DNA of 40,872 nt from Pseudonocardiales bacterium (GTDB lineage Bacteria > Actinomycetota > Actinomycetes > Mycobacteriales > Pseudonocardiaceae). Below, in pieces: positions 7,968-27,069 of the stretch. The notes under the pieces were generated by a model, which searched no databases, was not told the DNA's origin, and saw nothing but the letters and a program-made list of their open reading frames with translations. The DNA lies in contig JAHEXI010000024.1 of NCBI GenBank assembly GCA_023252195.1, positions 11,959 to 52,830 on the forward strand, written 5' to 3'. How positions within the stretch are numbered: the stretch's first letter is position 1; every line of letters starts with the position of its first letter. The translations under genes and the position numbers were made by a program.

Positions 7968-8022
7968 GCCTGCGCACGCTAGCGGGTGCACTCGTCACGC
8001 CGCGCAGCCGTAGCCTGATCTC

Positions 8023-8604
8023 ATGGCTGTGCACCTGACCAGGATTTACACCCGCACCGGTGACGAGGGTACGACCGGCCTCGGCGACTTCTCCCGGGTG
8101 AGCAAGACCGATCCGCGGCTGATCGCCTACGCCGACGTCGACGAAGCGAACTGCGCCCTGGGCGTGGCGATAGCGCTGGGATCATTGGAACAACGGCTGA
8201 TCACGGTACTGCGGCAGGTGCAGAACGACCTGTTCGACGTGGGTGCCGACCTCTGCACCCCCATCGTGAGCGACCCGAAATATCCTCCGTTGCGGGTTGC
8301 CGAGAGCTACGTCACCCGGCTGGAGGGTTGGTGTGACGACTTCAACGCCGCGCTGCCCGCGCTGGACTCATTCATCCTGCCCGGGGGCACTCCCGGCGCC
8401 GCATTGCTGCACACCGCCCGGGTGGTTACCCGGCGCGCCGAGCGCAGCGTGTGGGCGCTGCTGGACGTCGACGCGCAACGCACCAATCCACTGACCGCGC
8501 GCTACCTCAACCGGCTGTCTGACCTGCTGTTCATCCTGTGTCGGGTGGCCAATCCAGCGGGGGATGTCCTGTGGGCGCCCGGAGAGCGCCCACAGGGCTC
8601 GTGA
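8023..8604 (+). CDS. Cob(I)alamin adenosyltransferase, PduO type
   Basis: 193 aa, five-helix PduO-type ATP:cob(I)alamin adenosyltransferase. It makes adenosylcobalamin from ATP and cob(I)alamin. Motifs: TRTGDEGTTGL (N-terminal ATP-binding loop, residues 9-19), DVDEANCALG, FILPGG near residue 125, the helix with ARVVTRRAERSV, and LNRLSDLLFILCR. ATG start at 8023. The same gene faces murA in M. tuberculosis (Rv1314c). Its product is the cofactor of the ethylmalonyl-CoA mutase encoded 3 kb away. The stop TGA lies inside the left arm of a 24-bp hairpin. Confidence 0.92.
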   Translation: MAVHLTRIYTRTGDEGTTGLGDFSRVSKTDPRLIAYADVDEANCALGVAIALGSLEQRLITVLRQVQNDLFDVGADLCTPIVSDPKYPPLRVAESYVTRLEGWCDDFNAALPALDSFILPGGTPGAALLHTARVVTRRAERSVWALLDVDAQRTNPLTARYLNRLSDLLFILCRVANPAGDVLWAPGERPQGS

Positions 8605-8646
8605 GTGCGTAACAGTGTAAGAACACTGTTACGCACTCACGAGCCC
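8595..8646. terminator. 24-bp perfect hairpin with 4-nt loop carrying both stop codons
   Basis: Arms 8595-8618 and 8623-8646 are exact reverse complements and the loop is AAGA. The convergent genes end inside the arms: TGA 8602-8604 on plus and 8637-8639 on minus. Both proteins therefore finish Gly-Ser-stop, encoded by the palindrome. Likely a bidirectional terminator, possibly a dispersed intergenic palindrome. Confidence 0.75.
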
Positions 8647-9062
8647 CGCCGCGCGCGCGGCGGGGCTGACTCCAGCCAGGACAGAAAACCTGTGAGGGTG
8701 TCCTGTCGCATGGCCAGCTCCAACTCATCGACGCCGGTGCGGCAGCGCAGCACGACCGCCCCACTGGGCATCGCATAGCTTTCCGGCACCGTCAGACCCC
8801 GTCGTTCCACAATCTCCAGCTGGTCCCGGTCGAGCACTCGATCGGGACCCGATCGCAGGCTGGAAACCCGGAACCAGGCGAAGCCGTCGCCCTGATAGCG
8901 GCCCACCCCCTGGTGCCAGCCACGGCCGGCGTCCTTCGGCCGCGATCGCAGTGCGACGTCGATGCCGCCTTGACGCACCAGCCGGAGGCGTCGCAATGCC
9001 AGGGCGGCGATCACCACTGCCCCGGCTAGCAGGACGAACTCCAGGATCCGCGCTAGCCCCAT
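8637..9062 (-). CDS. DUF2550 family membrane-anchored protein
   Basis: 141 aa. It corresponds in position and content to Rv1312, the DUF2550 protein next to atpC. One N-terminal transmembrane helix (residues 8-24, LLAGAVVIAALAL) is followed by a soluble domain with WHQGVGRY, FAWFRVSSLR and a conserved PSGAVVLRC segment. The start ATG at 9060-9062 places the helix directly at the N-terminus. It is 25 bp downstream of atpC on the same strand and may be the last gene of the ATP synthase transcript. Function unknown; no catalytic motif is visible. Confidence 0.85.
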   Translation of the reverse strand: MGLARILEFVLLAGAVVIAALALRRLRLVRQGGIDVALRSRPKDAGRGWHQGVGRYQGDGFAWFRVSSLRSGPDRVLDRDQLEIVERRGLTVPESYAMPSGAVVLRCRTGVDELELAMRQDTLTGFLSWLESAPPRARRGS

Positions 9063-9087
9063 AGCGGCCCCCGCACCCGGAAGAATC

Positions 9088-9477
9088 TCACACGGTTTGA
9101 CCGACTGCCCGCAGTCGCGCGGTCGCTCTGGCCCGCACCGAGTCGGCTTGCTCCGAATCCTTGTCGGCGTTGGCCTTCGACAGTGCATCCCTGGCGGCCT
9201 GCGGATCGATCTCGTCGGCGAGCTCGGCCGCCTCGGCCAGCACGCTCACCTTGTCACCCGTAGCTGACAGAAACCCGCCGAAGACCGCCGCCGTCACGGT
9301 CTCACCGTCGGTGGTGGTGACCTTGACGATGCCACCCTCGATGAGCTCACCCAGCAACGGGGTATGCCCAGGCAGGATGGCTAGCTCGCCCTCGGTGGTT
9401 TCGGCGAACACCGAGTTCGCGTGGCCCGACCACACCTCGCGCTCCACCGCCACCAGCTCGACGGACATCTCAGCCAC
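9088..9477 (-). CDS. atpC: ATP synthase subunit epsilon
   Basis: 129 aa. Epsilon forms part of the central stalk of F1 and couples it to the c-ring. The N-terminal beta-sandwich shows [27 protein letters not shown] and [14 protein letters not shown] helical C-terminal part of about 40 residues ends in a basic [12 protein letters not shown], longer than the short mycobacterial tail. ATG start at 9475-9477, 54 bp after atpD. Confidence 0.95.
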
Positions 9478-9531
9478 GGGTAACTCCTGCCCTGTTGTCG
9501 GCCCTCCTGCGGATCTGATCAGTCTAAACGG

Positions 9532-11992
<2,461 letters not shown>

Positions 11993-11998
11993 TATCCG

Positions 11999-13852
11999 TC
12001 ACTTCTTCGCGTTGTTTTTCGGGTCCCGGTTTTTCGAGTCCTGGTTTTTCGAGTCCTGGTTTTTCGAGTCCTGGTTTTTCGAGTCCTGGTTTTTCGAGTC
12101 CTGGTTTTTCGAGTCCTGGTTTTTCGAGTCCTGGTTTTTCGAGTCCCGGTTTTTCGAGTCCTGGTTTTTCGAGTCCCGGTTTTTCGAGTCCCGGTTTTTC
12201 GAGTCCCGGTTTTTCGGGTCCTGCTTGGCGACCTTGACCGATTCGCGCTCAACATCGTCGGCGTCCATCGGCTCGGCCTCGTCTTCCTTACCCAACGAGG
12301 AGCCGTCCTCCGTGGTGAACTGCTTCTTGAAGGCCGTCACCGCGTCCACCACCTGCTGCTCGGTGTCCTCGCTGAACTGCTTGGTCTCCCGGATCGCGTC
12401 AAGGATGCCCTTATGGTGCCGGCGGACCTCGGCGAGGAAATCCGACTCGAAGCGCCGGACGTCAGCAACCGCCACCTCGTCCAGGTGTCCCCGGGTGCCG
12501 AGGAAGATCGACACCACCTGCTCCTCGATCGGCATCGGCGTGTACTGGGCCTGCTTGAGCAGCTCGGTGAGCCGAGCGCCGCGTTCGAGCTGGCGTCGCG
12601 AGGTGGCATCGAGGTTCTCCGCCCCGAACGCCGCGAACGATTCCAGCTCGCGATACTGGGACAGCTCCAGCCGCAGCGTGCCACCGACCGACCTCATGGC
12701 CTTGATCTGCGCTGAACCACCCACCCGGGAGACCGAGACACCGACGTTGATCGCCGGCCGGACGCCCTGGTTGAACAGGTCGGACTCGAAGAAGCATTGA
12801 CCATCGGTGATGGAGATCACGTTGGTTGGGATGTAGGCCGAGATGTCGTTGGCCTTGGTCTCGATGATCGGCAACCCGGTCAGTGATCCCGCACCCAGCT
12901 CGTCGGACAGCTTCGCGCAGCGCTCCAGCAACCGCGAGTGCAGGTAGAACACGTCGCCTGGATAGGCCTCGCGCCCTGGTGGACGGCGCAGCAGCAGCGA
13001 GATAGCCCGGTAGGCCTCGGCCTGCTTGGAAAGGTCATCGAAGATGATCAAGACGTGCTTGCCCTGGTACATCCAGTGCTGGCCGATCGCCGAACCGGTG
13101 TAGGGCGCCAGCCACTTGTAACCGGCCGAATCCGACGCCGGAGCTGCGACGATCGTGGTGTACGCCAGCGCGCCGGCATCCTCCAGGCCCTGGCGGACCG
13201 CCGCGATCGTGGTGCCCTTCTGGCCGATCGCCACGTAGATGCAGCGCACCTGCAAGGCCGCGTCACCGGTTGCCCAGTTCGACTTCTGGTTGATGATGGT
13301 GTCGACACACACTGCGGTCTTGCCGGTCTTGCGGTCACCGATGATGAGCTGCCGCTGACCGCGACCGATCGGGGTCTGCGAGTCGATCGCCTTGATGCCG
13401 GTCTGCAACGGTTCCTTCACCGGCTGCCGGTCGAGCACCGAGGGCGCCTGCAGCTCGAGGACTCGCTGTTCGTCGGCGTCGATGTCGCCCAGGCCGTCCA
13501 GCGGGATGCCCAGCGGATCCACCACCCGGCCGAGGAAGTTGTCCCCGACCGGCACCGACAGGATCTTTCCGGTGCGCCTGACCTCCTGGCCTTCCTCGAT
13601 CTCCGCGAAGTTACCCAGGATGACGGTACCGATCTCTCGCACATCGAGGTTGAGCGCGACGCCCAGCACACCGCCAGGGAACTCCAGGAGCTCGTTGGTC
13701 ATCGCCGACGGCAGCCCCTCGACCCTGGAGATGCCGTCACCAGCATAGATGACGGTGCCCACCTCCTCCCGCGAGGTCTCGGTCGAGAAGGAAGTGACGT
13801 AGTTCTCGATCGCGCTCCGGATCTCGTCCGAGGAGATCGTCAGCTCCGCCAT
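11999..13852 (-). CDS. atpA: ATP synthase subunit alpha with C-terminal pentapeptide array
   Basis: 617 aa, about 100 longer than E. coli AtpA and 68 longer than mycobacterial AtpA. The normal alpha domains are intact, with the P-loop [10 protein letters not shown] near residue 172 and the conserved [19 protein letters not shown] block. After the family end comes an acidic stretch finishing ESVKVAKQ, which matches the mycobacterial C-terminal extension (EAVKVKK). Then 14 pentapeptides of the DSKN(Q/R) type occupy residues 545-614, ending AKK. The array is encoded by a 15-bp minisatellite. In mycobacteria the alpha extension contacts gamma and restrains ATP hydrolysis; what the added charged, unstructured tail does is unknown. 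Upstream neighbour atpH (70 bp), downstream atpG (6 bp). Confidence 0.97.
12011..12220 (-). repeat. 15-bp minisatellite, 14 units, inside atpA
   Basis: Fourteen codon-aligned units of 15 bp encode Asp-(Ser/Pro)-Lys-Asn-(Gln/Arg/Asn). On the plus strand the unit reads TTTTTCGAGTCCTGG. Seven consecutive units (12030-12134) are identical; the others differ by a T to C change (Gln to Arg), and the outermost units by TCG to CCG (Ser to Pro). Near-perfect identity points to recent slippage or unequal exchange. The T5 tract in each unit is unusual in this GC-rich genome. Confidence 0.95.
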
Positions 13853-13922
13853 GGCTATCGGCCCCTGCTCTCTTGTTTCTTGACACCGTCTGGGTGTCCA
13901 TTTTGGCTAGTCGCCACGACGC

Positions 13923-14741
13923 TCATCGGGACATCCACTGGCGTGCCTGGCCCAGCCGGGCCGCCACGCTGCCGTCGATCACCTCGTCGCCCACCCTGAT
14001 CACCAACCCGCCGAGCAGTTTGGCGTCGAGATCGACCTTCAGTGAGATCGGCCGCCGGTAGATCCGGTTGAGGACGTCGAGCAGGCGCTGCTCTTGGCGC
14101 TGCGACAGCGGACCGGCCGCGGTGACGTGGGCCACCGAGCGTTCCCGCCGCGCCGCTGCGCGATCGACAAGACCTTCGACGATCTCGTCGAGGGGGCGTC
14201 GTCGTGGCGACCGGACCGCCTGTTCCAGCAGTTGGCGGGTCACCGGGCGAGTTCGGTCGGCCAGCACCGTGGACAGCAGCTCCAGGCGCCGTGCGCCGGG
14301 AGCGGTCTCATCCCCCAACAGCGACGCCAGTCGAGGTTGGGCAACCAGGATCCGACCGAAACGGAACAGCTCATCTTCGACCTCGTCGAGACTTTCGTCG
14401 TGCTCGGCGAGACTCAGCAGCGCCTGCCAGGCCAGCTCCTCGACTCCGTCGATCAAATCCAACGGCCGAGACCAGCGAGAACTCACCACGTCGCCCAAGA
14501 CGGCGAGGCTGATCTGGCTCACTTTCGCACCGAACAAGGTCTTGACCATGTCGCGCCGGATCTGCTCGGGCGCTGCGGAATCGGCGAGGTGCCGCCGGAT
14601 TACGGGCTGCGCGCCGAGCACCGCTGCGACGCCGGCCAGGTCGTCACCCAGGCGGTCGCGATCCTGCGCGCTGGCACCATCGGTCCGGCTCTCCAAGCGC
14701 TCCCGGGCCGCGGCCAGTGCCGCCCTGCTGGCCGGCTGCAT
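13923..14741 (-). CDS. atpH: ATP synthase subunit delta
   Basis: 272 aa, peripheral-stalk protein linking the top of F1 to subunit b. Both delta domains are present: the helical N-terminal part (DRDRLGDDLAGVAAVL, then KTLFGAKVS) and the C-terminal VTAAGPLSQRQ plus LLGGLVIRVGDEVIDGSV. This is the long form typical of non-mycobacterial actinomycetes. It is not fused to a b-like segment, unlike mycobacterial AtpH. The ATG overlaps the atpF stop by one nucleotide (TGATG). Confidence 0.95.
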   Translation of the reverse strand: MQPASRAALAAARERLESRTDGASAQDRDRLGDDLAGVAAVLGAQPVIRRHLADSAAPEQIRRDMVKTLFGAKVSQISLAVLGDVVSSRWSRPLDLIDGVEELAWQALLSLAEHDESLDEVEDELFRFGRILVAQPRLASLLGDETAPGARRLELLSTVLADRTRPVTRQLLEQAVRSPRRRPLDEIVEGLVDRAAARRERSVAHVTAAGPLSQRQEQRLLDVLNRIYRRPISLKVDLDAKLLGGLVIRVGDEVIDGSVAARLGQARQWMSR

Positions 14742-15430
14742 CAGCGCCTCCGCCGCGCGTGGGGTACCGAGGCGGCCCCTTTGACGGTGCCGTTCTTCGG
14801 CGCGCCGGCTTCAGGGGCCGCACTGTCCTGAGAAACCGCCCTGTCCTGAGCGGCGACATTGTCCTGAGGGACACTCTCGGGGGCGCTTGGGGGGGCGGCC
14901 ATACCCTGAAGCTCGTCGAGAAAGCGGTCCACCGTTCCGGCTCGGCGGGCGTCGTCGGCCACCGACTCACCGACGATCCGACCAGCCAGCGTCACCGCGA
15001 GTTTGCCCAGCTCACCACGCAGCTGACGGACGACCTGCTCACGCTGGGTGGCCAGCTGCTCGGCGCCGCGCTCGCGGATCCGCGCGACCTCGTGTTCAGC
15101 CTGCTCCCGCAGCTCATCCTTGATCTCCTGCGCATCGGCCCGGGCGCTCTCCCGGATCTTGGCCGCCTCGACGCGCGCCTCGGCTAGCGCCGCGGAGTAA
15201 CGCGCTTCGGCCTCGGCCAGTCGCTTGGTGGCCTGCTGGCTCTCCTGGATCTGCCGACGGACCATCTCCTGACGTTGCGCCGTCGCACGTTTCACCGGGG
15301 GCACCACGTAGCGCCAGATCACCCCGACCACGATCAGGAAGATCAGGAGCTCGACGAAGAAGGTCGCATTGGGGATCAGGAAGAGATTGCCACCACCGCC
15401 ACCCGGTGCAGCCACGCTGTAGAGACTCAT
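14741..15430 (-). CDS. atpF: ATP synthase subunit b
   Basis: 229 aa. One N-terminal membrane helix (about residues 22-40) is followed by a long charged coiled coil that forms the peripheral stalk. A Pro/Ala/Gln-rich tail of about 45 residues ends RRRR, longer than usual for b. Start ATG at 15428-15430: the ribosome site GAAGGA is 9 nt upstream and the protein begins MSLYSV; two upstream in-frame ATG codons lie within or before this site. The stop overlaps the atpH start. Confidence 0.93.
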   Translation of the reverse strand: MSLYSVAAPGGGGGNLFLIPNATFFVELLIFLIVVGVIWRYVVPPVKRATAQRQEMVRRQIQESQQATKRLAEAEARYSAALAEARVEAAKIRESARADAQEIKDELREQAEHEVARIRERGAEQLATQREQVVRQLRGELGKLAVTLAGRIVGESVADDARRAGTVDRFLDELQGMAAPPSAPESVPQDNVAAQDRAVSQDSAAPEAGAPKNGTVKGAASVPHARRRR

Positions 15431-15475
15431 GGCTCCCATTCCTTCACACGAAATCACTTGTCGTCCCCGACCAGA

Positions 15476-15841
<366 letters not shown>

Positions 15842-16579
15842 TCAGTGGGCCCCTTCTCCCTCCTGGCCACCGGCCGCCATTCCGAAGTAGATAATCGTCA
15901 GCAATGCGAAGATCAGCGCCTGAAGCATGCCGATGAACAGGTCGAACAACTTCCACGCCGAGGTGGGCAACCACGACACGGCCGCCGGCATCAGCGCGAG
16001 AACGCTGACCATCACGGTGCCAGCGAGGATGTTGCCGAACAGCCGCAGCGAGAGGGTGACCGGCTTGACCAGCTCCTCGATGATGTTCAGCGGCAGCATC
16101 GCCTTGTAGGGCTGGACGAAATGGCCGAAGTAGTGCTTGCCCTGGACCCGGATTCCGGTCGCCCACACCATAATCATCACGAAAACCGACATCGCGAAGG
16201 TCAGATTGACGTCCGCCGTGGGCGGCCGGACGTACTCCTCGGTCGCGTGCGGCAAGATCGATATCCAATTCGCGATCAGGATGAAAAAGAAGAGGCTGAT
16301 AGCCAGTGGCACGACAAAGGGTGCCGTGCGGATGCCGACGTTGGTCTCCACCTGGCGTTCCACCTGTTCGGTGACCGCCTCGAAGGCTATCTGCAGGGTG
16401 CTGGGCACCTTGGAGGTCGCCTTGGCCGCAAGGTAGAGACCGAACGCGAGGACGATGACCGCGGCGATCGATGTGGAGATGACGGTGTCAGCGTTGATCG
16501 TCAATCCGAGGATATGCCACTGGGGGTGCTCGCCGACCGATACGCCGCCCCCACCTTCGGCCAATACATGCGCGATCAT
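15842..16579 (-). CDS. atpB: ATP synthase subunit a
   Basis: 245 aa, integral membrane stator of the proton channel. Several transmembrane helices are visible. The essential arginine is Arg179 in TLSLRLFGN. ANWISILP precedes a periplasmic loop, and the last helix includes ALIFALLTIIYFGMA. The start ATG overlaps the stop of the upstream gene (16576-16579), so the two are translationally coupled. Confidence 0.95.
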   Translation of the reverse strand: MIAHVLAEGGGGVSVGEHPQWHILGLTINADTVISTSIAAVIVLAFGLYLAAKATSKVPSTLQIAFEAVTEQVERQVETNVGIRTAPFVVPLAISLFFFILIANWISILPHATEEYVRPPTADVNLTFAMSVFVMIMVWATGIRVQGKHYFGHFVQPYKAMLPLNIIEELVKPVTLSLRLFGNILAGTVMVSVLALMPAAVSWLPTSAWKLFDLFIGMLQALIFALLTIIYFGMAAGGQEGEGAH

Positions 16580-16998
16580 CCCGGGGAACCCCCGACTCCG
16601 GACTGACGCAGTTCCCGCACGAGGGGAACCGTCGCGATGAAGATCATCAATAGTTGAAAGATGGCTAGCCCGCCGAACACCCCGAGACCTTCGGGCTGCA
16701 GCACCAGCGCCAAGCCGACGGCGAGCGCGGTGATCAGCGTGAGCCGAGCCAGCACCGACACCGCGAATTTGCGCTTGTTGGGGTCACCACTGGCCGCGAA
16801 GCGCGCTGCAGAACGCTGGACGAGCGACGTGTTGAGCAGACCCAGGCCGAGTCCGCCGCAGAAGAACACCGCCGTCAGCGGGTAGCCCATTGGCGCGAGC
16901 ACCACAAAGCTGACGGCGCCCAGACCAGCCGCGATGGGCATGGCCCGGCGAAGATTGACGACCGATTTCGTCGTTGCAGTCACGTCAGGCGTGGTCAC
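16576..16998 (-). CDS. ATP synthase I-like membrane protein (Rv1303 type)
   Basis: 140 aa with four hydrophobic segments. In position and pattern it matches the gene between the AtpZ-like protein and atpB (Rv1303 type). Members of this group are thought to help assemble the c-ring or supply Mg. Chosen start: GTG at 16996-16998, with the GGAG of the preceding gene's end 11 nt upstream. A GTG at 16984-16986 is an alternative, and an upstream reading overlaps the previous gene. NTSLVQRSAARFAASGDPNKRK is the cytoplasmic loop. Confidence 0.75.
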   Translation of the reverse strand: MTTPDVTATTKSVVNLRRAMPIAAGLGAVSFVVLAPMGYPLTAVFFCGGLGLGLLNTSLVQRSAARFAASGDPNKRKFAVSVLARLTLITALAVGLALVLQPEGLGVFGGLAIFQLLMIFIATVPLVRELRQSGVGGSPG

Positions 16999-17006
16999 GT
17001 CAGCGC

Positions 17007-17222
17007 TTACTCCTTCAGAAACTTCGTGAAGTTGATGTACATATAGACCCCAGCACCGACGATGCCAAGCGCCAAGCCAACCAGGGTGAACGCCGGAATG
17101 GAGTGCACCACCTGGTCGACCAACCATCCCAGACCGAGGCCGACCAGCAGAATAGCTGCGGTCGCGGCGCCGAGGCCAAGTAGCGTCGCAAGCTCTGGGC
17201 CGTTGCGTTTCTCCACGACCAC
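17007..17222 (-). CDS. AtpZ/AtpI-like small membrane protein
   Basis: 71 aa with two membrane helices: LGAATAAILLVGLGLGWLVD and FTLVGLALGIVGAGVYMYIN. This is the AtpZ/AtpI family at the head of F1Fo operons, implicated in Fo assembly or Mg/Ca transport. The start is GTG at 17220-17222; the GTG two codons later is also possible. First gene of the operon; 240 bp upstream separate it from wecA. Confidence 0.8.
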   Translation of the reverse strand: MVVEKRNGPELATLLGLGAATAAILLVGLGLGWLVDQVVHSIPAFTLVGLALGIVGAGVYMYINFTKFLKE

Positions 17223-17350
17223 CTACTTCAGCGGGCGCATGACGTCGCCCGCCGCCATCGCTCAAAGGCACTCCTCGCAGTCCAGGGGCAGCGCGCATGG
17301 CGGATACGCCACGTTCATGAGCACTGCCGATGGGCCGGCCTGACCTGAAA

Positions 17351-17399
17351 TCCCACCCCCGGGTGGGACAAACCAGAAGCTATCACACTCACGCGTGAG
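17351..17399. promoter_or_regulatory. Two short palindromes in the atp operon upstream region
   Basis: TCCCACCC and GGGTGGGA (17351-17368) form a compact hairpin, and CTCACGCGTGAG (17388-17399) is a perfect 12-bp palindrome. Both lie between the wecA stop and the first atp gene. The first could end wecA transcription; the second could be a regulator site. No clear promoter hexamers identified. Confidence 0.35.
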
Positions 17400-17462
17400 C
17401 CCTGTGATCGACCCAGCTGCTTCTAGCTGCGCTTCTTGTCTTCCTCGCCAGTCCTGCGGAGA

Positions 17463-18611
17463 TCAGCGCGCGGGTAACCGGGGAATCATCGAACCCACCA
17501 CGGCGACCAACAGTCCCAGCATGATCGACCACACCACCACATAGACGTCGAACAGCGTCAGCGCAACGGCGCCGAAAGCCAGCAGCGCCGCCCACAAGTA
17601 GATCAACAACACCGCCCGGCGATGGGAGTGTCCGATCTCCAGCAGCCGGTGGTGCAGGTGCAGCTTGTCGGCCGCGAACGGGCTGCGGCCCGCGCGCGTC
17701 CGACGCACCACCGCGAGCAGCAGGTCCAGCAGCGGCACGAACAGCACCGCGGCCACCACCAACAACGGCGAGAGCAGCGCCAGTACGTCGGTGGCCCCGT
17801 AGTTGTTGGGATCGATCTTCCCGGACGCGCTGGTCGACGCCGCGGCCAGCATCAGCCCGATGAGCATTGCCCCGGAGTCGCCCATGAAGATCCGCGCTGG
17901 CTGGAAGTTGTGCGGCAGGAAGCCCAGGCACGCACCGGCGACCAGGGCGGCGATCAGCGTCGGTGGGTAGAGCGACACACTGCCACCGGACCGGTACAAC
18001 AGCTGCAGGGTGAACGCCCCGATAGCGACAGCGGCGATCAACCCGATTCCGGCGGCCAAGCCGTCCAGGCCGTCGACGAAGTTCATCGCGTTCACCAGCA
18101 CCACCGCCAGCGCGACGGTGACGAACACCGCCTGATCCTGCCCCAGGACGAGCACCGAGCCGACCCGGCCGGCGCTGCCGTTCCACGGCACCCAGAAGAT
18201 GAACCACTGCACGTCGTAGAGCACCAGCACCCCGGCGGCGGTGACCTGTCCGGCGAACTTGGTGAGCGAATCCAGCTCGAACCGGTCATCCAGGGCGCCG
18301 ATCAGCATGATGAGGCCGCCGGCGACCAGCACCCCCACGACATCCCCAGAGAACTCGAAGGACCGCCGTAACACGGGCAGCTGGTGAGACAGCAGGACGC
18401 CGCCGAGGATTCCGCCGTACATCGCCACCCCACCCAGCCGTGGGATCGGCGCGCGGTGCACGTCACGCTCGCGCGGCGTCGCCACCGCACCGGTGTAGAT
18501 CGCCAGTAGCCGCACCATCCCGGTAAGCAGGAAAGTCACCACCGCAGTGGTGAGGCCGACCAGCAGGTACTCCCGCAGCGGCAGTCCAGAAGGATCGGGG
18601 ACAGGTCCCAC
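17463..18611 (-). CDS. wecA: Polyprenyl-phosphate GlcNAc-1-phosphate transferase WecA/Rfe
   Basis: 382 aa, polytopic membrane enzyme with about 11 helices. It transfers GlcNAc-1-P from UDP-GlcNAc to polyprenyl phosphate, which in actinomycetes starts the linker between peptidoglycan and arabinogalactan or other wall polymers. Family motifs: PIPRLGG near residue 55, the Mg-binding DDRFELD near 107, NFVDGLDG near 177, FMGDSGAM near 244 and HLHHRLLEIGHS near 312. GTG start at 18609-18611. It holds the slot of Rv1302 upstream of the ATP synthase operon. Confidence 0.92.
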   Translation of the reverse strand: MGPVPDPSGLPLREYLLVGLTTAVVTFLLTGMVRLLAIYTGAVATPRERDVHRAPIPRLGGVAMYGGILGGVLLSHQLPVLRRSFEFSGDVVGVLVAGGLIMLIGALDDRFELDSLTKFAGQVTAAGVLVLYDVQWFIFWVPWNGSAGRVGSVLVLGQDQAVFVTVALAVVLVNAMNFVDGLDGLAAGIGLIAAVAIGAFTLQLLYRSGGSVSLYPPTLIAALVAGACLGFLPHNFQPARIFMGDSGAMLIGLMLAAASTSASGKIDPNNYGATDVLALLSPLLVVAAVLFVPLLDLLLAVVRRTRAGRSPFAADKLHLHHRLLEIGHSHRRAVLLIYLWAALLAFGAVALTLFDVYVVVWSIMLGLLVAVVGSMIPRLPAR

Positions 18612-18681
18612 CGGGGCAGGCTAGTCCCGCGGCGGTTGCGCCCCACCGGTAGCCCAACCGCCGCCGTCTCTCGGATCACTC

Positions 18682-18746
18682 GTGATCGCAGTTCGGGAAG
18701 AATGAGCCGCGCTCAGCGCGGTTGGTTCTTCCCAAATCGCCATCAC
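18682..18746. repeat. 65-bp palindromic repeat, copy 1
   Basis: Imperfect palindrome with inner arms GGGAAGAAT..CCGCG and CGCGG..TTCTTCCC and outer GTGATCGC/ATCAC. It aligns without gaps to 19652-19716 (about 52 of 65 positions identical). Its right end overlaps the stop codon of the DUF559 pseudogene. Confidence 0.75.
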
Positions 18747-19615
18747 GTGTTGGCTTTGAGGGCTGAGCGGATCTCCTCGACCACGCCGGCGGGGCGGGCG
18801 ACCAGGTCATGCCAGGTGAAACGCAGGAGCGCCCACTGCTCGTTCACCAGAGCGTTCTGACGTCGCCGGTCGTCGACGAACCGATCGGCCGTCACGTGCC
18901 AGGCCCAGCCGTCCACCTCGATGGCAACCCGCTGTACCGGGAACGCCAGGTCAATGACGTAGCCCGCGACGGGGTAAGCCAGCTCCCAACCAGTGATCCC
19001 CGCGGCACGCAGCAGCCGGACCAGCACCCGCTCGGCGTGCGAGGCGGCCCGGTCAGCCGCGACGGCAAGCAGCTGGGCTGCCTGAGCGGATCCCCGCCGG
19101 CCATGGTTGCGGCACTGCGCCCGGTACACCGCGGGGAACTTGACCCGACGTTGCAGTGATCGGTCGAGCAGCTCGGACCCTTCGGGTCACAGCGCGATCG
19201 CCGCTTCCAGCACAGTGAGAGGTAGATCGGTGACCCACAGGTCGCGCACGGCGACCAGATCCGGATAGGGCAGGCCACGTCGGCGTATCGAGACTCCAGG
19301 CTGCTTGCCGGGATTCCGGCTGCGCCGCACCGTCACCTCCACCGTGTCCGGCAAGGCCGGACCGAGGTCGTGCCACCATGCGGCCGACACACCGTGCGCG
19401 ACCGCGTCCTTACCGGCCCAGAGCACGGCCGCCCGCATCCGCACCTCATCGGTGTACGGGTGATCAGCGGACAGGTACACACCGGGGTGCAGCCGTTCCC
19501 ACCGTCGGCTGTTGATGCGGCGGTCGACCATGTCCTGGCTCAAGCCTGCCATCCGCGCTTGCGCGCAGCTGATCACGCCGGACTGCCGGCGCAGGTACCA
19601 GTCCAGTTCTTCCAT
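18743..19615 (-). pseudogene. AbiEi-like + DUF559 (PD-(D/E)XK) protein, broken by an in-frame TGA
   Basis: One 290-codon frame is interrupted by a single TGA at 19187-19189. The N-terminal half (143 codons from ATG 19613-19615) has a winged-helix-like region (SQDMVDRRINSRRWERLHPG) and a beta part, as in AbiEi-type antitoxin-domain proteins. After the TGA the same frame continues directly with PEGSELLDRSLQRRV, then a DUF559 Vsr-like nuclease domain with the metal residues in VIDLAFP and AIEVDGWAWH, then LRFTWHDL. Family members have Gly at the stop position, so a GGA to TGA change is the likely lesion. The gene is absent at this place in mycobacterial order and is bracketed by the 65-bp palindromes. 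Restart at 19129 could still give a free nuclease domain. Confidence 0.85.
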
Positions 19616-19651
19616 GATGTACAGATGCCCGGCGGTTTCCCAAGGTTGCCC

Positions 19652-19716
19652 ATGATCGCTGTTTCGGAAGAATCAGCCGCGCTCACCGCGGCTCATTCTT
19701 CCCATTTCGTGATCAC
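19652..19716. repeat. 65-bp palindromic repeat, copy 2
   Basis: Palindrome with core CCGCG..CGCGG and arms GGAAGAAT/ATTCTTCC, closed by TGATC at both ends. It lies between the Sua5-type gene's stop and the start of the DUF559 pseudogene, and is the partner of 18682-18746. Confidence 0.75.
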
Positions 19717-19722
19717 TTGCGG

Positions 19723-20370
19723 TTAGCGGGCCACCTGGATGGCCTGGCCGAGTACCTCAGCGATCTGAGCGATGGTCACCGCGCCTTCCCGGAGCACCAC
19801 GGGCTCGTCAGCGGTGAGGTCGATGATGGTGGACGCGACCTCACCGGCGGTCCCACCGTCGAGATACACCGATACCCGCTCGGCGAGCTGCTCACGGGCC
19901 TGCTCGACGGTGGTCGCCGGCGGCTGGCCGGACCGGTTCGCACTCGACACCGCCATCGGGCCCACCTCGCGGAGCAGTTCCAGCGCGACCGGGTGCAACG
20001 GCATCCGCAGGCTGACGGTGCCCCTGGTATCACCCAGGTCCCAGCTCAGCGACGGCGCGTGCGGAAGCACTATCGACAGTCCACCAGGCCAGAACGCCTC
20101 GATCAGCGCGCGTACCCGCGCTTGAACACCCAGCACCAGACCGTCCACCGTGGACCAGGAACCCACCAGCACCGGGACCGGCATGGCCCGGCCCCGCCCC
20201 TTCGCGGCCAGCAGCCCCTGCACCGCCGTCGCCGAGAACGCGTCGCAACCCAGCCCGTAGACGGTGTCGGTGGGCAACACGACGAGTTGACCGGCCCGGA
20301 CCGCGCCCGCTGCCGCGGTCAACCCGGCGATGCGGCCGTCCGGCAGCGCGCAGTCATAAACAATGCTCAC
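19723..20370 (-). CDS. L-threonylcarbamoyladenylate synthase (Sua5/YrdC/YwlC)
   Basis: 215 aa, YrdC fold. It makes threonylcarbamoyl-AMP from threonine, bicarbonate and ATP for the t6A37 modification of ANN-decoding tRNAs. Motifs: LVVLPTDTVYGLGCDA (residues 29-44), the KxR-type segment KGRGRAMPVPVLV, FWPGGLSIVL, and SSANRSGQPP. The start is GTG at 20368-20370 (MSIVYDC), the common beginning of actinobacterial members; longer readings have no homology. In mycobacteria it follows hemK directly; here an SGNH hydrolase gene on the other strand separates them. Confidence 0.92.
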   Translation of the reverse strand: MSIVYDCALPDGRIAGLTAAAGAVRAGQLVVLPTDTVYGLGCDAFSATAVQGLLAAKGRGRAMPVPVLVGSWSTVDGLVLGVQARVRALIEAFWPGGLSIVLPHAPSLSWDLGDTRGTVSLRMPLHPVALELLREVGPMAVSSANRSGQPPATTVEQAREQLAERVSVYLDGGTAGEVASTIIDLTADEPVVLREGAVTIAQIAEVLGQAIQVAR

Positions 20371-20479
20371 GGTCCGCAACACTACGACGGCCCACAACGG
20401 GCCTGGATTCGCCTGCGGCGTTGACAGCATGTGATCAAGACGGCACCATCCGTCTCCGATCACCTTTCGGAGGTTCACT

Positions 20480-21382
20480 TTGCTCGCGTACCGCCCCACT
20501 GTCCTCGCTGCCGCAGCGACCGTGCTGGCGCTGCTGGCGTTTCCCGGCAGCTCGGGCGCCGCCATCGGGAAGTCACCGAAGCACTATGTGGCGCTCGGTG
20601 ACTCCTACACCTCCGGCCCGGTGATCCCGGTGCAGCGAATCGATCCGATCGGCTGTGAGCGGTCCACTAACAACTATCCGGCGCTGCTTGCCCGGACACT
20701 GCAAATCCGCGACTACACCGATGTGAGCTGCAGCGGCGCGAAGACCGTCAACATGACGGCTCCGCAGGCGGTACCGCTGCTGGGCGTCAACCCACCGCAG
20801 TTCGACGCGCTGCGCCCCGACACCGATCTGGTCACGCTGACCATCAGTGGCAACGACATCGGTTTCACGGAACTCATCTTCACCTGCGCCCGGCTCAGCG
20901 TCACCGACCCGCTCGGCAACCCCTGCCAGCGAGCGGCCACCGCCGAAGGCGGGGATTTCTATGCGCAGCGCATCGCCGAGGCGGCACCCAAGGTCGCGCA
21001 GGTGCTCGACGGTATCCGGGCCCGCTCGCCGCACGCGACGGTGCTACTGGTGGGATACCTACGCATCCTGCCGCCGGCGGTGGGCTGCTATCCGGTGTTC
21101 CCGGTCGCCAGCGGCGACGTGCCGTACCTGGACAGTCTGGAGCAGCGCCTCAACACCATGCTGGCCGACCAGGCTTTCAAGCACGGCGCGGCATTCGTCG
21201 ACTCCTACGGAAGCTCGCTGGGCCACGACGCGTGCAAGCTGCCCGGGCAGAAATGGGTGGAGGGGACCGTTCCCACCAGCCCAGCCGCCCCGGTACACCC
21301 CAACGCCATCGGCATGCAAGAGGTTGCAGCTTTCGCTCGGGAGACGCTCACTAACCTGACCGAGGCACGGGCGGTGGGCTGA
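20480..21382 (+). CDS. Secreted SGNH/GDSL hydrolase (lipase/esterase)
   Basis: 300 aa. The signal peptide (residues 1-28) has an Ala/Leu-rich core and an SGA-A cleavage region. The SGNH catalytic set is visible: Ser42 in GDSYTSG (block I), the oxyanion Asn125 in SGNDIGF (block III), and a His in VHPNAIG (block V) near residue 277. Six cysteines fit the disulfide pattern of Streptomyces-type lipases. Start TTG at 20480, set by a strong GGAGG 6 nt upstream. It is divergent from the Sua5-type gene and overlaps the prmC end by 32 bp on the opposite strand. Likely an exported esterase or lipase; the substrate is unknown. Confidence 0.9.
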   Translation: MLAYRPTVLAAAATVLALLAFPGSSGAAIGKSPKHYVALGDSYTSGPVIPVQRIDPIGCERSTNNYPALLARTLQIRDYTDVSCSGAKTVNMTAPQAVPLLGVNPPQFDALRPDTDLVTLTISGNDIGFTELIFTCARLSVTDPLGNPCQRAATAEGGDFYAQRIAEAAPKVAQVLDGIRARSPHATVLLVGYLRILPPAVGCYPVFPVASGDVPYLDSLEQRLNTMLADQAFKHGAAFVDSYGSSLGHDACKLPGQKWVEGTVPTSPAAPVHPNAIGMQEVAAFARETLTNLTEARAVG

Positions 21383-22250
21383 TCATTGTGGTGCGCCGGG
21401 CGGTGGCGAACCGCGGCCGGCCGGCTAGGTCGAGGTGGTCGGCCACGTCGGTGAGCACCCGCCGGGCGGCGAGCAGCGCGGGGACGACCACCGCGTGCGA
21501 GTCGTCGTGTTCGATCGCGATGCTGCCCCCCTCGCGGAGCAACCTGGTCCCGGTCCGCACCACGTCAGGAATCACGGCGAGGCCATCGTCGCCGGCAAAG
21601 ATGGCGACGGGCGGGTCGTGCCAGGCCACCTCGGGTGGGAGTGCAGCGTCCAGCGGCACATAGGGCGGGTTGCACAGCACCAGGTGCGCCATCCCATCCA
21701 GCGCGACCAGCAGTCCAGGATCGGCGACGTCCCCGGCGTACAGCACCACCGGCGTGTCGCCGGCCGCGGCCCGCGTGTCGACGTTGCGCCGCGCCCAGCT
21801 CAGCGCCACCGGGTCCCGTTCGACGGCGTGGACCTGCGCATCGGGTCTGACGTGCGCCACAGCCAGCGCCAGCGCACCGGAGCCGGTGCAGAGATCGATC
21901 ACCAGCGGCTGCGCCACGCCGTCCAATGCGGCCAGACCCCAGGTCAGCAGCGCTTCGGTCTCCGGGCGCGGGATGAACACCCCGGGCCCGACCGCGACGT
22001 CGATGGGACCCATCGCGGCTGTCCCGGTGAGGTGCTGCAACGGCACCCGCTTGGCACGTCGAGAAACCAGCAACCGCAATGCCTCGACCACGGGCTGGTC
22101 GACCAGCGGAATCATCGGCAGCCGCCCTCGCGGCACGCCGACCACGTGCGCCGCGAGGAGTTCGGCGTCCACCCGGGGAGACTCCACCCCGGCGTCGGTG
22201 AGGATCCGTTGCGCCTCTAGCACCGCCAGGCGCAACGGTTGCCTGCTCAC
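21351..22250 (-). CDS. prmC: Peptide chain release factor N5-glutamine methyltransferase
   Basis: 299 aa, HemK/PrmC. It methylates the glutamine of the GGQ motif in release factors. The N-terminal helical domain (residues 1-80) is followed by [11 protein letters not shown] (92-102), the SAM-binding [10 protein letters not shown] (119-128) and the catalytic NPPY (194-197). The start overlaps the prfA stop by 4 nt (GTGA, 22247-22250), so it is coupled to its substrate's gene. Confidence 0.95.
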
Positions 22251-23314
22251 GAGCCCCGCAGCCGCAGCTCACGATCCGCCGCGATCAACGCGTCCAGCAC
22301 CCCGTCGAGGTCTCCGTCGAGCACCGCATCGAGGTTGTAGGCCTTGTAGTTGACGCGATGGTCGGAGATCCGGTTCTCCGCAAAGTTGTAGGTACGCACT
22401 CGCTCGGACCGGTCGACGGTGCGAACTTGGGAGCGGCGCTGGTCGGAGGCCTCCTGCTGAGCTTTCTCGTCAGCTAACGCCTGCAGCCGAGCCCGCAGCA
22501 CCGCGGTGGCCCGGATCCGGTTCTGAATCTGCGACTTCTCGTTCTGGCAGGACACCACGGTCCCGGTCGGAAGGTGGGTGATGCGCACCGCGGAGTCGGT
22601 GGTGTTGACGCTCTGCCCGCCGGGCCCGGAGGAGCGGTAGACGTCAATCCGCAGGTCCTTGTCCTCGATCTCGATCGCGACGTCGTCTGGTTCTGGGTAT
22701 ACCATCACTCCCGCCGCCGAGGTGTGAATCCGCCCGGACGACTCGGTGACCGGGACTCGTTGCACCCGATGCACCCCACCCTCGAACTTCAACCGCTCCC
22801 AGACCCCGGACTGTGCGGCTTTGACCGCAACCGTGACGTCCTTGTAGCCGCCCAGGTCGGACTCAGTGGCGTCGAGCACCTCAGCCCGCCAGCCGTGCCG
22901 CTCGGCGTAGCGCAGGTACATCCGTAGCAGGTCTCCGGCAAACAATGCGGACTCCGCGCCGCCCTCCCCTGACTTGATCTCCATCACCACGTCGGAGTCG
23001 TCGTGCGGGTCGCGGGGCAGCAACAGGTCGGCTAGCTCGGTTTCCAGCCGCGGCACCCGGTCGGCGAGGGCATCAGCTTCGGCAGCGAAGGCCGGATCCT
23101 CGGCGGCGAGCTCGCGAGCGGCCTCGACGTCGCCGCGGGCCTGATCCAGCTCACGAACCGCCCGCACAATGCGGGATAACTCGCCGTAGCGCCGCCCCAC
23201 CTTGCGAGCCGTATCGGGATCAGCATGCAACCCAGGATCAGCGAGCTGATGCTCCAGCTCAGCGTGCGCGACCAGCAGCGCCTGAACTGCCGCGGTGTCC
23301 ACGCCGGTCACCAA
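22247..23314 (-). CDS. prfA: Peptide chain release factor 1
   Basis: 355 aa, class I release factor for UAA and UAG. The codon-recognition tripeptide PVT is at 188-190 and the peptidyl-hydrolysis motif GGQ at 232-234, in [10 protein letters not shown]. Start GTG or ATG at 23312-23314. The gene lies 48 bp after rpmE and overlaps prmC. Confidence 0.96.
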
Positions 23315-23362
23315 TCCCCACTCGTGTCGATTTCCATTCGATAGCGCTTGGACTCCGGTGTC

Positions 23363-23575
23363 CTACTTCTGCCGTTTGCCGTAGCGCTTCTCGAATCGCG
23401 CCACCCGGCCACCGGTGTCCAGAATCTTCTGCTTGCCGGTGTAGAAGGGATGGCAGTTAGAGCACACTTCGACGTTGATCTGACCGTCGCGCTTGGTGCT
23501 CCGAGTAACGAAGGAGTTGCCACAACCGCAGGTGACCTGCGTCTCGACATACTCCGGGTGGATGCCCTGCTTCAT
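23363..23575 (-). CDS. rpmE: Ribosomal protein L31, zinc-binding form
   Basis: 70 aa. All four zinc-ribbon cysteines are present (Cys16, Cys18, Cys38, Cys41), marking the zinc-replete C+ paralogue. HPFYTGKQK is conserved. Start ATG 23573-23575 with an AGGA-type site (AGAGAGGACTTCC region) upstream. Confidence 0.96.
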
Positions 23576-23732
23576 GGAAGTCCTCTCTTCATGGCCGCCG
23601 GGTCCCCGTGATCGTGTGCGCGGGGTGAACCGGAACCGGACGGTGCACTGGCTCGCCGATGGCAGGCAGTGAGCCGTGACAGTGTAAACCGTCAGCCGTG
23701 CTGCGATGTTCCCGGCTGTTTGACCTGAAGAT

Positions 23733-24434
23733 TCACAACAGCTCGGACGGGATATCCGCGTACTGCCTGCGCAAAATATCCAGCACCGGATGCTCATGCG
23801 CCCACTGGATACCGTCGACAGCGCTGACGGAACGGACGCCGACTGCGGCGTTCGTGGCGAACACCGCGTCCACGCCGGCTAGGTCGCTCAGAGTGATCGG
23901 CGCGGTGGTGGCATGGGCCTGCCGAGCCTCGTTGATCAGTCTCATGGTGACGCCGGCAAGGCAGTCCGCCTGGGGCCAGACGATCCGATCCCCGGCAACG
24001 AAACCGATGTTCGATGTGGTCGCTTCGGAGATCGCCGCCGCGGCGTCGATGAACAGCGCGTCGTCAAAGCCATTGCGCTGCGCGACCCGCCGCCACCGAA
24101 GCGCGCCGAACAGCCCGACATGTTTGACCTCGGGCAGCTCCCGGCAATGCGGGGCTGACTGCAGACGCAACGGAGGCAACGGTGCCATCGCGGCCGGCCG
24201 GGTGGTGACCAACAGCTGCGGCGCGGCGTCCGCTCCGGGGCGCCCGAGTTCGAGATCGGGGTCGAACACGGTCACCCGGACCACGACCGATCCGGCGGTT
24301 TCAGCCAGAGCGCGCCGGACGAGATGCCGGACCCGGTCGGGGTCCAGATCAGCATCGAAGATCCGGCGGCAGTCCCGCATCAGGCGTTCCAGGTGCAGGG
24401 CCAGACCCCGCACTCGGTGGCCATCGACCCGCAT
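23733..24434 (-). CDS. Aminotransferase class IV (aminodeoxychorismate lyase-like)
   Basis: 233 aa from ATG 24432-24434, fold type IV PLP enzyme. Lys in [10 protein letters not shown] is the probable PLP lysine, [10 protein letters not shown] carries the catalytic-site Glu, and [11 protein letters not shown] binds the phosphate. In-frame sequence upstream of this ATG continues the family's conserved N-terminus ([10 protein letters not shown]), yet no ATG, GTG or TTG lies in frame before it. The true start may be a CTG near 24461, or the 5' end may have decayed. Lies between rpmE and rho, same strand. Substrate uncertain: branched-chain, D-amino acid or 4-amino-4-deoxychorismate. Confidence 0.8.
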
Positions 24435-24523
24435 CGAGGTGTAGTGGCCGTAGTTGAGCAGAGCTAGCGCGGTGACCTGATCAAGGTCGGCGCAACCGCC
24501 GCTACGGTGCCCGAGCTGCCCTT

Positions 24524-26746
24524 TCAGTCGGCGCCGTTGCCGGCTGTCGACTTCGAGACCTGCATCAGGAACTCGATGTTGGTGCGGGTTTTGCGCAGCT
24601 GGGCCAGCAGCAGATCGATGGCCTGCTGAGACTCCAGTCCGGACAGCACTCGCCGCAGCTTGTGGTAGATGGCCAGCTCGTCCGGGGACAGCAGGAGCTC
24701 CTCCTTGCGGGTGCCGGAGGGGTTGACGTCGATGGCCGGGAAGATCCGCTTGTCGGCGATCTTGCGGTCGAGCTTGAGCTCGGCGTTGCCGGTTCCCTTG
24801 AACTCCTCGAAGATCACCGTGTCCATCGTCGACCCGGTCTCGACCAGCGCGGTCGCGAAGATGGTCAGCGAGCCACCATCCTCGATGTTGCGGGCCGCGC
24901 CCAAGAATCGCTTCGGCGGGTACAGTGCGGTGGAGTCCACCCCACCGGACAGGATCCGGCCGGATGCCGGCGCTGCCAGGTTGTAGGCCCGGCCCAGCCG
25001 AGTGATGGAGTCCAGCAGCACGACCACGTCGTGACCCATCTCCACCAGCCGCTTGGCCCGCTCGATGGCCAGCTCCGAGATAGTGGTGTGATCCGACGGC
25101 GGCCGGTCGAAGGTCGAGGCGATGACCTCACCCTTCACCGAACGCTGCATGTCGGTGACCTCTTCTGGCCGCTCGTCGACGAGCACGACCATGAGGTGGC
25201 ATTCCGGGTTGTTCGTGGTGATCGCGTTGGCGATCGCCTGCAGGATCATCGTCTTGCCCGCCTTGGGTGGCGAGACGATCAACGCCCGCTGACCCTTGCC
25301 GATCGGCGCGACCAGGTCGATCACCCGGGTGGTCATGATGTGCTGCTCGGTCTCCAGCCGCAACCGCTCGTTGGGGTACAGCGGGGTCAGCTTGGTGAAC
25401 TCCGGGCGCTGTTTGGCCTGCTCGACGTCCAAACCGTTGATGCTGTCGACCCGGACCAACGGGTTGAACTTCTGCCGCTGCTGCTCACCATCGCGAGGCT
25501 GGCGCACCGCGCCGGTGATCGCGTCACCGCGGCGCAACCAGTACTTGCGGACCAGCGACAGCGACACGTACACGTCATTGGGCCCGGAGAGGTAACCTGA
25601 TGTGCGGACGAACGCGTAGTTGTCGAGCACGTCGAGGATTCCCGCGACGGGCAACAACACGTCGTCCTCGCGGACCTCTAGCTCACCACCGTCTCGGCGG
25701 TCGCTGCTGCGGTCTGGGCCGCGGTCGGCGCCACGGTCGGGGCCGCGGTCATTGCGGTTGCGCCGGTTGCGGTCACGGAACCGGCGGCCACGCCGGCGGC
25801 CCGCCTCGTCATCGTCGTCACCGCGCGGACCATTCTGGCTCTGGCCAGCCGCATTCTGGCTGACCTGCTGGCTCGCGTTCTGGCTGACGTTGGGCCCGCT
25901 CGGTGCCTGATCAGCCTGGGTTTGATCACCCTGGGTTTGATCACCCTGGGTTTGATCACCCTGGGTTTGATCACCCTGGGTCTGGTTGCCCTGGGTCTGG
26001 TTGCCCTGGGTCTGGTTGCCCTGGGTCTGGTTGCCCTGGGTCTGGTTGCCCTGGGTCTGGTTGCCCTGGGTCTGGTTGCCCTGGGTCTGGTTGCCCTGGG
26101 TCTGGTTGCCCTGGGGGCGAGTTACCTCACCGCCGCGGACCGGACGTCGCCGCCGGTTGCGGGACCGGTCAGCGCCGTCGGTGTCCCCGTCCGGCTGACC
26201 CCCTTGCTGATCACGACCTTGCTGAGGCTGATCTTGGCGACCCTGATCTTGCTGGTCCGGAGTCTGCGACTCAACGGTGGTCAGCGACTCAACAGGGCGT
26301 GACTCAACGGGACCCGACTCAGGCCGACTCGATGCGACGGCGGGGGCATGCTGCTCCACTGCCGGAGCATCGGGTTGAACCGTTGGCGGACCTGTCTGGG
26401 CATCTACCTGAGCGGTCCGGCCACTCGTTCGGCTGGCGGTGTGGGCTACCGGACCGTCGAGCGGGAGCTGCTCAGCAGACGCACGCCGCTGCCCGGGGAC
26501 GGTGCCCTGGCGCTCCTTGATCGCCGAGATCAGGTCATTCTTACGCATACCGGTGATGTTGGAGATGCCCAGCTGGCCAGCCATCTGGCGCAACTCCACC
26601 ATCACCATTCCAGACAACCCGGCACGGCGCCGCGGCGCCGCCCCGTTGCCCGAAGACGGGGCAGCACTGCCAGCCTCGTCGGCTGGGCGCTGGTCCGTAG
26701 ATTCCGCAGCAACAACGTCGCTGCCCAACAAGTTGATATCGCTCAC
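24524..26746 (-). CDS. rho: Transcription termination factor Rho with long low-complexity insertion
   Basis: 740 aa; E. coli Rho has 419 and M. tuberculosis Rho about 600. Residues 40-85 hold the N-terminal helical domain ([20 protein letters not shown]). Residues about 90-355 form an insertion rich in Gln, Asn, Asp and Arg, including a tandem array TQGNQ then TQGDQ (about 211-275) and an RRNRN/DRG stretch likely to bind RNA. The canonical RNA-binding and ATPase domains follow: Walker [12 protein letters not shown] near 494, Walker [17 protein letters not shown], and the Q-loop [11 protein letters not shown] start at 26744-26746 with AGGAAGGA upstream. Confidence 0.96.
25921..26115 (-). repeat. 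15-bp minisatellite, 13 units, inside rho
   Basis: Thirteen 15-bp units. Four plus-strand units of the type TTTGATCACCCTGGG (25921-25980) encode TQGDQ, and nine of the type TCTGGTTGCCCTGGG (25981-26115) encode TQGNQ. Within each block the units are identical apart from the last. Degenerate half units flank both sides. Confidence 0.95.
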
Positions 26747-27069
26747 GCAGGTCCTTCCTAACCGACCCGGGACGTAGCTCGGGCCAGCCTGTTCGCCGTC
26801 CGGCGGTATGCGGACGGCGCCTGATCCGGTGCGGGGGCTCGCGTACCCAAAACCATCGGTTCGAGCCGACCGGCACGGGACATGTTCAGCTGTGGCAAGA
26901 GCCTGGGTGCCAGCCTTCCCGCTACCACGTAACTGGAGGGCGGGAGATTAATTGCCCGGGTGAGAGGAACCCGAACGCGGCACCGGCGCCCGTGCACACG
27001 GTGTCTGAACGCCACTGAGACTATCGGTCCAGCGCCATCGCGGCAACAACAGGTCCGCGGATGGGTGGA
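26747..27069 (-). promoter_or_regulatory. rho leader and putative promoter
   Basis: 323 bp without a gene between thrB and rho. On the minus strand TTGTTG (27044-27049) and GATAGT (27020-27025) are separated by 18 bp and could be a sigma-A-type promoter, which would leave a leader of about 265 nt before the rho GTG. Long rho leaders often carry autoregulation. No riboswitch fold recognised. Confidence 0.35.

Follow-up and report, generated by a model that had tools for sequence, protein, structure and literature searches.

A coding minisatellite at the C-terminus of the ATP synthase alpha subunit of a Pseudonocardiales bacterium, probably tolerated beyond an apparently intact rotor-stator latch

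Introduction

The ATP synthase alpha subunit encoded in the stretch of Pseudonocardiales DNA analyzed here (40,872 nucleotides, hereafter the window) ends in fourteen in-frame repeats of a pentapeptide, located just after the C-terminal hook that in Mycobacterium smegmatis catches the gamma subunit. The array is probably a recent coding minisatellite that is tolerated past an intact latch and has little effect on it. Comparison with those congeners whose alpha end is readable shows that one ancestral pentapeptide, R-D-P-K-N, located close to the C-terminal end of alpha, was multiplied to 14 units by copying of DNA in the lineage of the window. The array would follow an intact hook, whose docking on gamma and block of ATP hydrolysis are predicted by homology with M. 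smegmatis. As the C-terminal end of alpha is presumably free and probably unstructured, 65 extra residues would probably be tolerated with little consequence for the latch.

The array and its units

The atpA gene (11999..13852, minus strand) encodes a subunit alpha of 617 amino acids with the Pfam domains ATP-synt_ab_N, ab and ab_C (PF02874, PF00006 and PF00306), the last of which ends at residue 508, and its product matches PDB 7jg5_A with an E value of 3.6e-272. The array covers 210 bp at the 3' end of the gene. In the ancestral phase, assigned by TRF, translation and congener comparison, it consists of fourteen 15-bp units on the minus strand at 12014..12223, each reading C(A/G)G GAC (C/T)CG AAA AAC and encoding (Q/R)D(P/S)KN. 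When the units are taken to begin with GAC instead, the array occupies 12011-12220, where the first-pass annotation had placed fourteen in-frame 15-bp units. The TRF score was 371 with 96% match (12014-12223), and when the window was shuffled 100 times with dinucleotides preserved the best score was 74, thus the array is not due to chance. With tandem units of at least 9 bp, in frame and above chance, it qualifies as a coding minisatellite.

The unit GACTCGAAAAACCAG occurs eight times, seven of them consecutively (units 6-12), which bears out the earlier remark on seven identical units; GACTCGAAAAACCGG occurs four times, and these four copies end in CGG. The first and last units carry CCG instead of TCG. 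After the array the protein terminates in NAKK (12002..12013, minus strand), which matches the KAKK of the congener G009. The tail after the hook comprises 76 residues.

Origin of the array

The window's genome (G000; 4.74 Mb, 48 contigs) was compared with ten congeners, each species being represented by one genome. Two of these, G001 and G002, fall outside the comparison of alpha ends, their alpha match stopping at residue 128 and a gamma match being absent. In G009 alpha ends in ESVKVSK-RDPKN-KAKK, with a single unit (CGG GAT CCG AAA AAC), and in the window in ESVKVAK-(14 units)-NAKK; hence unit number differs between species, from 1 in G009 to 14 in the window. The full unit is absent in the seven other congeners with a readable alpha end, and the flanks match: G010 ends in KAPKAKAKK and G003 to G008 have other short tails. 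The single unit of G009 and its matching flanks point to an ancestral (Q/R)D(P/S)KN unit and to a gain of 13 units, or 65 residues, in the window's lineage. Judged from these alignments, the atpA array is a 13-unit expansion in that lineage. The earlier figure of about 70 added residues therefore holds for the fourteen units present but not for the net gain, since one unit is ancestral. In the alpha tree G000 groups with G009 with weak support (81/83), and G009 may be mixed, as its row spans two contigs and the genome has a second gamma match; its one-unit tail is on the contig that also bears the closer gamma (C298).

The composition of the units indicates how the copies were made. There are no synonymous differences among the 14 units, and the two variable sites (CCG/TCG and CGG/CAG) are both replacement sites. 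Lysine is encoded by AAA in 14 of 14 units, compared with 3 of the 73 other lysine codons of four window genes. A rare codon in all units together with the lack of synonymous change argues for copying of DNA and not for selection for lysine, and the expansion appears DNA-driven. Edge units that retain CCG, as in G009, would be expected if the array grew from inside. The earlier proposal of a recent in-frame expansion after the ESVKV hook is thus supported by the single unit of G009 and by the units' lack of synonymous variation. Loops of 15 bases exceed what MutS handles, so mismatch repair is taken here as background and not as proof of the copying mechanism. According to the literature, Actinobacteria, in which the MutS-MutL repair system is missing or does not function, have conserved NucS/EndoMS homologues (PMC7736090), and NucS of M. 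smegmatis leaves indels of 1-2 bp unrepaired (PMC11551767).

An assembly error in the unit number or in the very presence of the array is extremely unlikely. Short-read assemblies can misjudge array length and this genome is in 48 contigs, but the array is internal to a 52.8-kb contig, its internal variants are ordered and ancestral flanks are found on both sides. Moreover, assemblers tend to shorten arrays and seldom invent them.

The hook and its gamma partner

In M. smegmatis, alpha residues 533-545 are reported to dock on gamma and block rotation, and deletion of this docking segment to increase hydrolysis and decrease synthesis (PMC8698299); the hook has been described as residues 520-548, which catch the gamma loop 212-220 (PMC8617483). 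The window's alpha likewise extends past ab_C (which ends at residue 508) and carries an E-[ST]-V-[KQ]-V strand, ESVKV, at residues 537-541 (12230..12244, minus strand), aligned with M. smegmatis alpha 536-540. Among the eight alpha contact residues listed in the source consulted (PMC8698299), six are identical (E534, E536, S537, K539, V540 and P545) and two are changed, L533 to V and P543 to Q. Gamma is encoded by atpG (10985..11992, minus strand; 335 amino acids; PF00231) and retains the catch strand EVEYV at residues 215-219. Identity extends to 12 of the 14 gamma contacts whose letter fits the M. smegmatis numbering, the changes being M206 to L and F232 to L; A59, H201, H202 and V207 were excluded because they mismatch the M. 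smegmatis sequence, and the printed R02 was taken as R202.

The first unit of the array corresponds to M. smegmatis alpha 543-547 and covers the contact positions P543 and P545. Consequently, the array starts where the docking segment ends distally, at the last contacts of the hook, and the ESVKV strand is unchanged. Since 12 of the 14 units have serine at the P545 position and none contains a VKV strand, the units are not extra hooks. With the hook strand and most gamma partners kept, the latch looks intact, with the array apparently protruding from its tip.

These observations bear on the idea of a length-tunable latch, in which the array would alter hook docking, through slower capture or a weaker hold by the bulky tail, and changes in unit number would reset the control of hydrolysis. 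The array does adjoin the docking segment, the P543 and P545 positions lie within its first unit, in-frame units permit graded change, and repeat number is reported to change function in tolA of E. coli (PMC3477136). Nevertheless, the hook strand is unaltered, most partner residues are retained, and the units lack both the VKV strand and, in 12 of 14, the contacting proline, which makes such tuning unlikely. The suggestion of the first-pass annotation that the array tunes the latch accordingly finds no support in the place where the array starts, in the intact ESVKV or in units mostly devoid of the gamma-contacting proline.

The segment of gamma between EVEY and FEP forms an acidic loop of 28 residues in the window, compared with 18-24 in nine other rows of the genus and 11 in M. 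smegmatis. This loop is the longest of the genus rows, which would fit a co-adaptation of tail and loop and was counted against a merely tolerated tail. Longer gamma loops are found together with short alpha tails outside the genus (e.g., L005 and L031), which argues against a tie between loop length and tail length. A further version of tuning is regarded as improbable. In it, the length-variable tail would serve the rotor-stator latch as a mutational rheostat: gain or loss of units, perhaps jointly with the longer gamma loop, would change how often the alpha hook catches gamma, and a population could thereby reset its control of hydrolysis.

The tail is 47% charged with a net charge of +8, and the neighboring gamma loop has -4. 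These values would suit a charged tether or bristle, with three 76-residue tails per F1 gripping the membrane or the acidic gamma loop and surrounding the central stalk as a cushion or an exclusion brush. Yet net charges of +5 and +6 are present even in G009 and G010 with their short tails, so that the array adds length more than charge; a tether or bristle is thus quite unlikely. A tolerated minisatellite past the hook continues to be the favored reading.

Occurrence among actinobacterial alpha subunits

Alpha ends were collected in 117 rows, namely 78 of 80 named loci (L057 and L080 gave no parsed alpha), 9 genus loci including that of the window and 30 family loci; after dropping identical sequences 108 distinct rows remained. 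The named loci are the best-scoring 80 of 580, which biases the sample toward close relatives. The pattern E[STAKNQ][VIL][KQRTNSV][VRLT] detected a hook in 106 of the 108 distinct rows, with E[ST]VKV exact in 64. The tail after the hook measures 3-21 residues in 105 rows and 76 in the window. When the tails (or the last 20 residues of the two hook-less rows) were subjected to a tandem test, the window alone was flagged among the 108. A second set, of 60 family genomes drawn from 119 rows that lack a locus, was searched by tblastn with a slightly looser pattern and gave a hook in 56 of 60, with tails of 3-10 residues. The two sets together make 168 actinobacterial alpha rows (loci L001-L166 and L255-L310), of which 162 have a hook under the loose pattern, totals that include overlap as the second set partly repeats species of the first; no hook-bearing row other than the window has a tail of more than 21 residues. 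A 65-residue repeat gain at the end of the highly conserved alpha subunit was therefore met once among the sequences surveyed. The absence of such an array from every other alpha in the survey could mean that selection normally removes expansions and that the window's is special.

A search with the window tail gave matches in 20 of 296 class genomes, its own included. Of the 19 other genomes matched, 9 were sampled with one locus each; a DNA array of 15-bp period is present in all nine of these non-self loci, and the alpha motif was found in none of them. This recurrence elsewhere in the class, together with an array of the same period in rho (see below), was counted in favor of a minisatellite. 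One of these loci, L246, encodes an ornithine cyclodeaminase-like protein according to Pfam. Look-alike pentapeptide arrays are carried by two unrelated actinobacterial reading frames, named by eye: L250 encodes an ABC-transporter-like ATPase with DSGNQ repeats at its end and L254 a kinase-like protein with AAQDS repeats. A degenerate three-unit pattern was confined to one of the 296 class genomes, the window's own, and in that genome a pattern of two units, with at most 3 mismatches allowed, matched nothing beyond the atpA array; the unit is thus rejected as a dispersed element. In a literature search on repeats in atpA, the term 'ATP synthase alpha' appeared in none of the matches listed.

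Operon context and other repeats

The remaining subunits lie on the minus strand and were assigned by Pfam: a (15842-16579), c (15476-15829), b (ATP-synt_B, 14741-15457), delta (OSCP, 13923-14741) and beta (9532-11082 as read), the starts of the open reading frames being mechanical calls. OSCP and ATP-synt_B are on separate reading frames, so a b-delta fusion of the mycobacterial type is absent, and the interval from atpE to atpH showed no further b gene. The atpG start is located 6 nt past the atpA stop and in the same frame (11992-12001; TGA then C); G009 and G010 have a 7-nt spacer, which places the two out of frame. A hypothetical read-through of the atpA stop would join alpha to gamma, the array serving as linker between them.

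This proximity to atpG is the basis of another reading, by which the array, with fourteen AAA codons that are rare in four window genes, would alter translational coupling and the alpha:gamma ratio. The RNA over the array and the atpG start (301 nt) folds no better than shuffled sequence (z +0.69; 74 of 100 shuffles fold at least as well), Rfam gave no match at the array in a search of 8000-27000, and no sigma-70-like promoter or terminator-like site was found in 11700-12500, all of which makes an expression effect very unlikely. On the same findings an RNA element was rejected. The sole Rfam match in the region searched is an L31-Actinobacteria ribosomal protein leader (RF03158; 23593-23639, minus strand).

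A repeat search revealed a second in-frame 15-bp array in the window, within rho (24524-26746), at 25908-26115 on the minus strand. It lies in the N-terminal part of Rho, which is variable, and is made up of NQTQG (nine units), DQTQG (three) and DQTQA (one); G009 has about six related units, G001 degenerate copies and the other congeners few or none. Arrays of at least 4 copies, with a period of at least 9 and a length of at least 60 bp, number 5 in 722 kb sampled from the window's genome (6.9 per Mb) and 2 in the 41 kb of the window, and this higher density in the window makes local causes possible. In comparator genomes the counts were 0 in 200 kb (G012), 3 in 100 kb (G070), 1 in 100 kb (G021), 1 in 165 kb (G004), 0 in 90 kb (G005) and 0 in 20 kb (G007); the window's genome is not clearly exceptional, and genome-wide repeat instability was rejected. 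Elsewhere in this genome, L179 (4765-4904) holds an array with a 13-bp unit in 10.8 almost perfect copies.

The hook beyond mycobacteria

Both the extension of alpha and the extra loop of gamma have been described as conserved in mycobacteria and not found elsewhere (PMC8617483). At the level of sequence, the present survey contradicts this for the alpha extension, the hook being widespread in the actinobacteria sampled: hook-pattern ends occur in rows of Pseudonocardiaceae, Rhodococcus, Nakamurella, Thermobifida and Actinomadura, the last three with more divergent forms. The ESVKV extension that the first-pass annotation called mycobacterial-like is present, but with a loose-pattern hook in 162 of 168 rows it is not specifically mycobacterial. 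In the literature searched, which was mostly open-access and included the available text of two reviews (PMC10049701 and PMC9317440), no prior notice of this wider distribution was met.

Six of the 168 rows have a hook-less alpha: L035 and L078, named Actinomycetospora, and L311-L314, all of them g42 rows; the family has five such rows, and the fifth (G140) is outside the sample. Gamma lacks EVEY in all six, with LSLEE, LDLGS or LDLES instead, and five of the six alphas have C-terminal tails rich in Ser, Asp and Glu. Rows without the hook thus also seem to be without the gamma catch sequence, and the joint absence is probably one event in one clade. A latch-less enzyme may occur naturally in these six rows, which are possible candidates on sequence grounds. 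The EVEY pattern deviates in six further gamma rows (L049, L057, L063, L066, L069 and L080), which argues against a strict pairing of hook and catch; the four of these with a parsed alpha have the divergent hooks EKVQV, ETIKR, ETITR and ETITR. The gamma scan parsed 138 of 171 loci and left 33 unparsed, and its loose pattern passed L035, so that only those of its rows that were read by eye were used.

Comparison with known systems

The repeat tail is a natural experiment on how much the tip of the rotor-stator latch can bear. The wider distribution of the hook would make the latch testable in non-pathogenic organisms and bears on the selectivity of hook-directed anti-tuberculosis compounds. The hook has been described in print as mycobacterial, and its wide spread among actinobacteria, as suggested by the rows surveyed, is the addition made by this comparison.

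One of the closest known systems is the alpha hook of M. smegmatis (520-548; PDB 7JG5 and the 7NJK series), through which the window's alpha aligns. The M. smegmatis chain has 548 residues, whereas in the window 14 repeat units follow the hook. In mycobacteria b and delta are fused, and in the window they are coded separately. The b' 'fail-safe' contact described for the mycobacterial enzyme (PMC8617483) has no obvious counterpart here, given that a second b gene was not seen between atpE and atpH.

Among repeat-bearing proteins, the repeats of E. coli tolA form a helical domain in the middle of the protein. Like the window's atpA, tolA is reported to carry short in-frame repeats in the gene for a conserved protein (PMC3477136); the repeat number of tolA varies between strains with an effect (PMC3477136), whereas the array of the window's alpha lies at a free C-terminus and is known from one genome. 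The repeats of Rho, encoded in the window as well, also consist of 15-bp in-frame units (NQTQG) that are partly homogenized, but they differ from the alpha array in that related repeats are found in several congeners, with varying number, and in that the region is variable in all Rho rows read.
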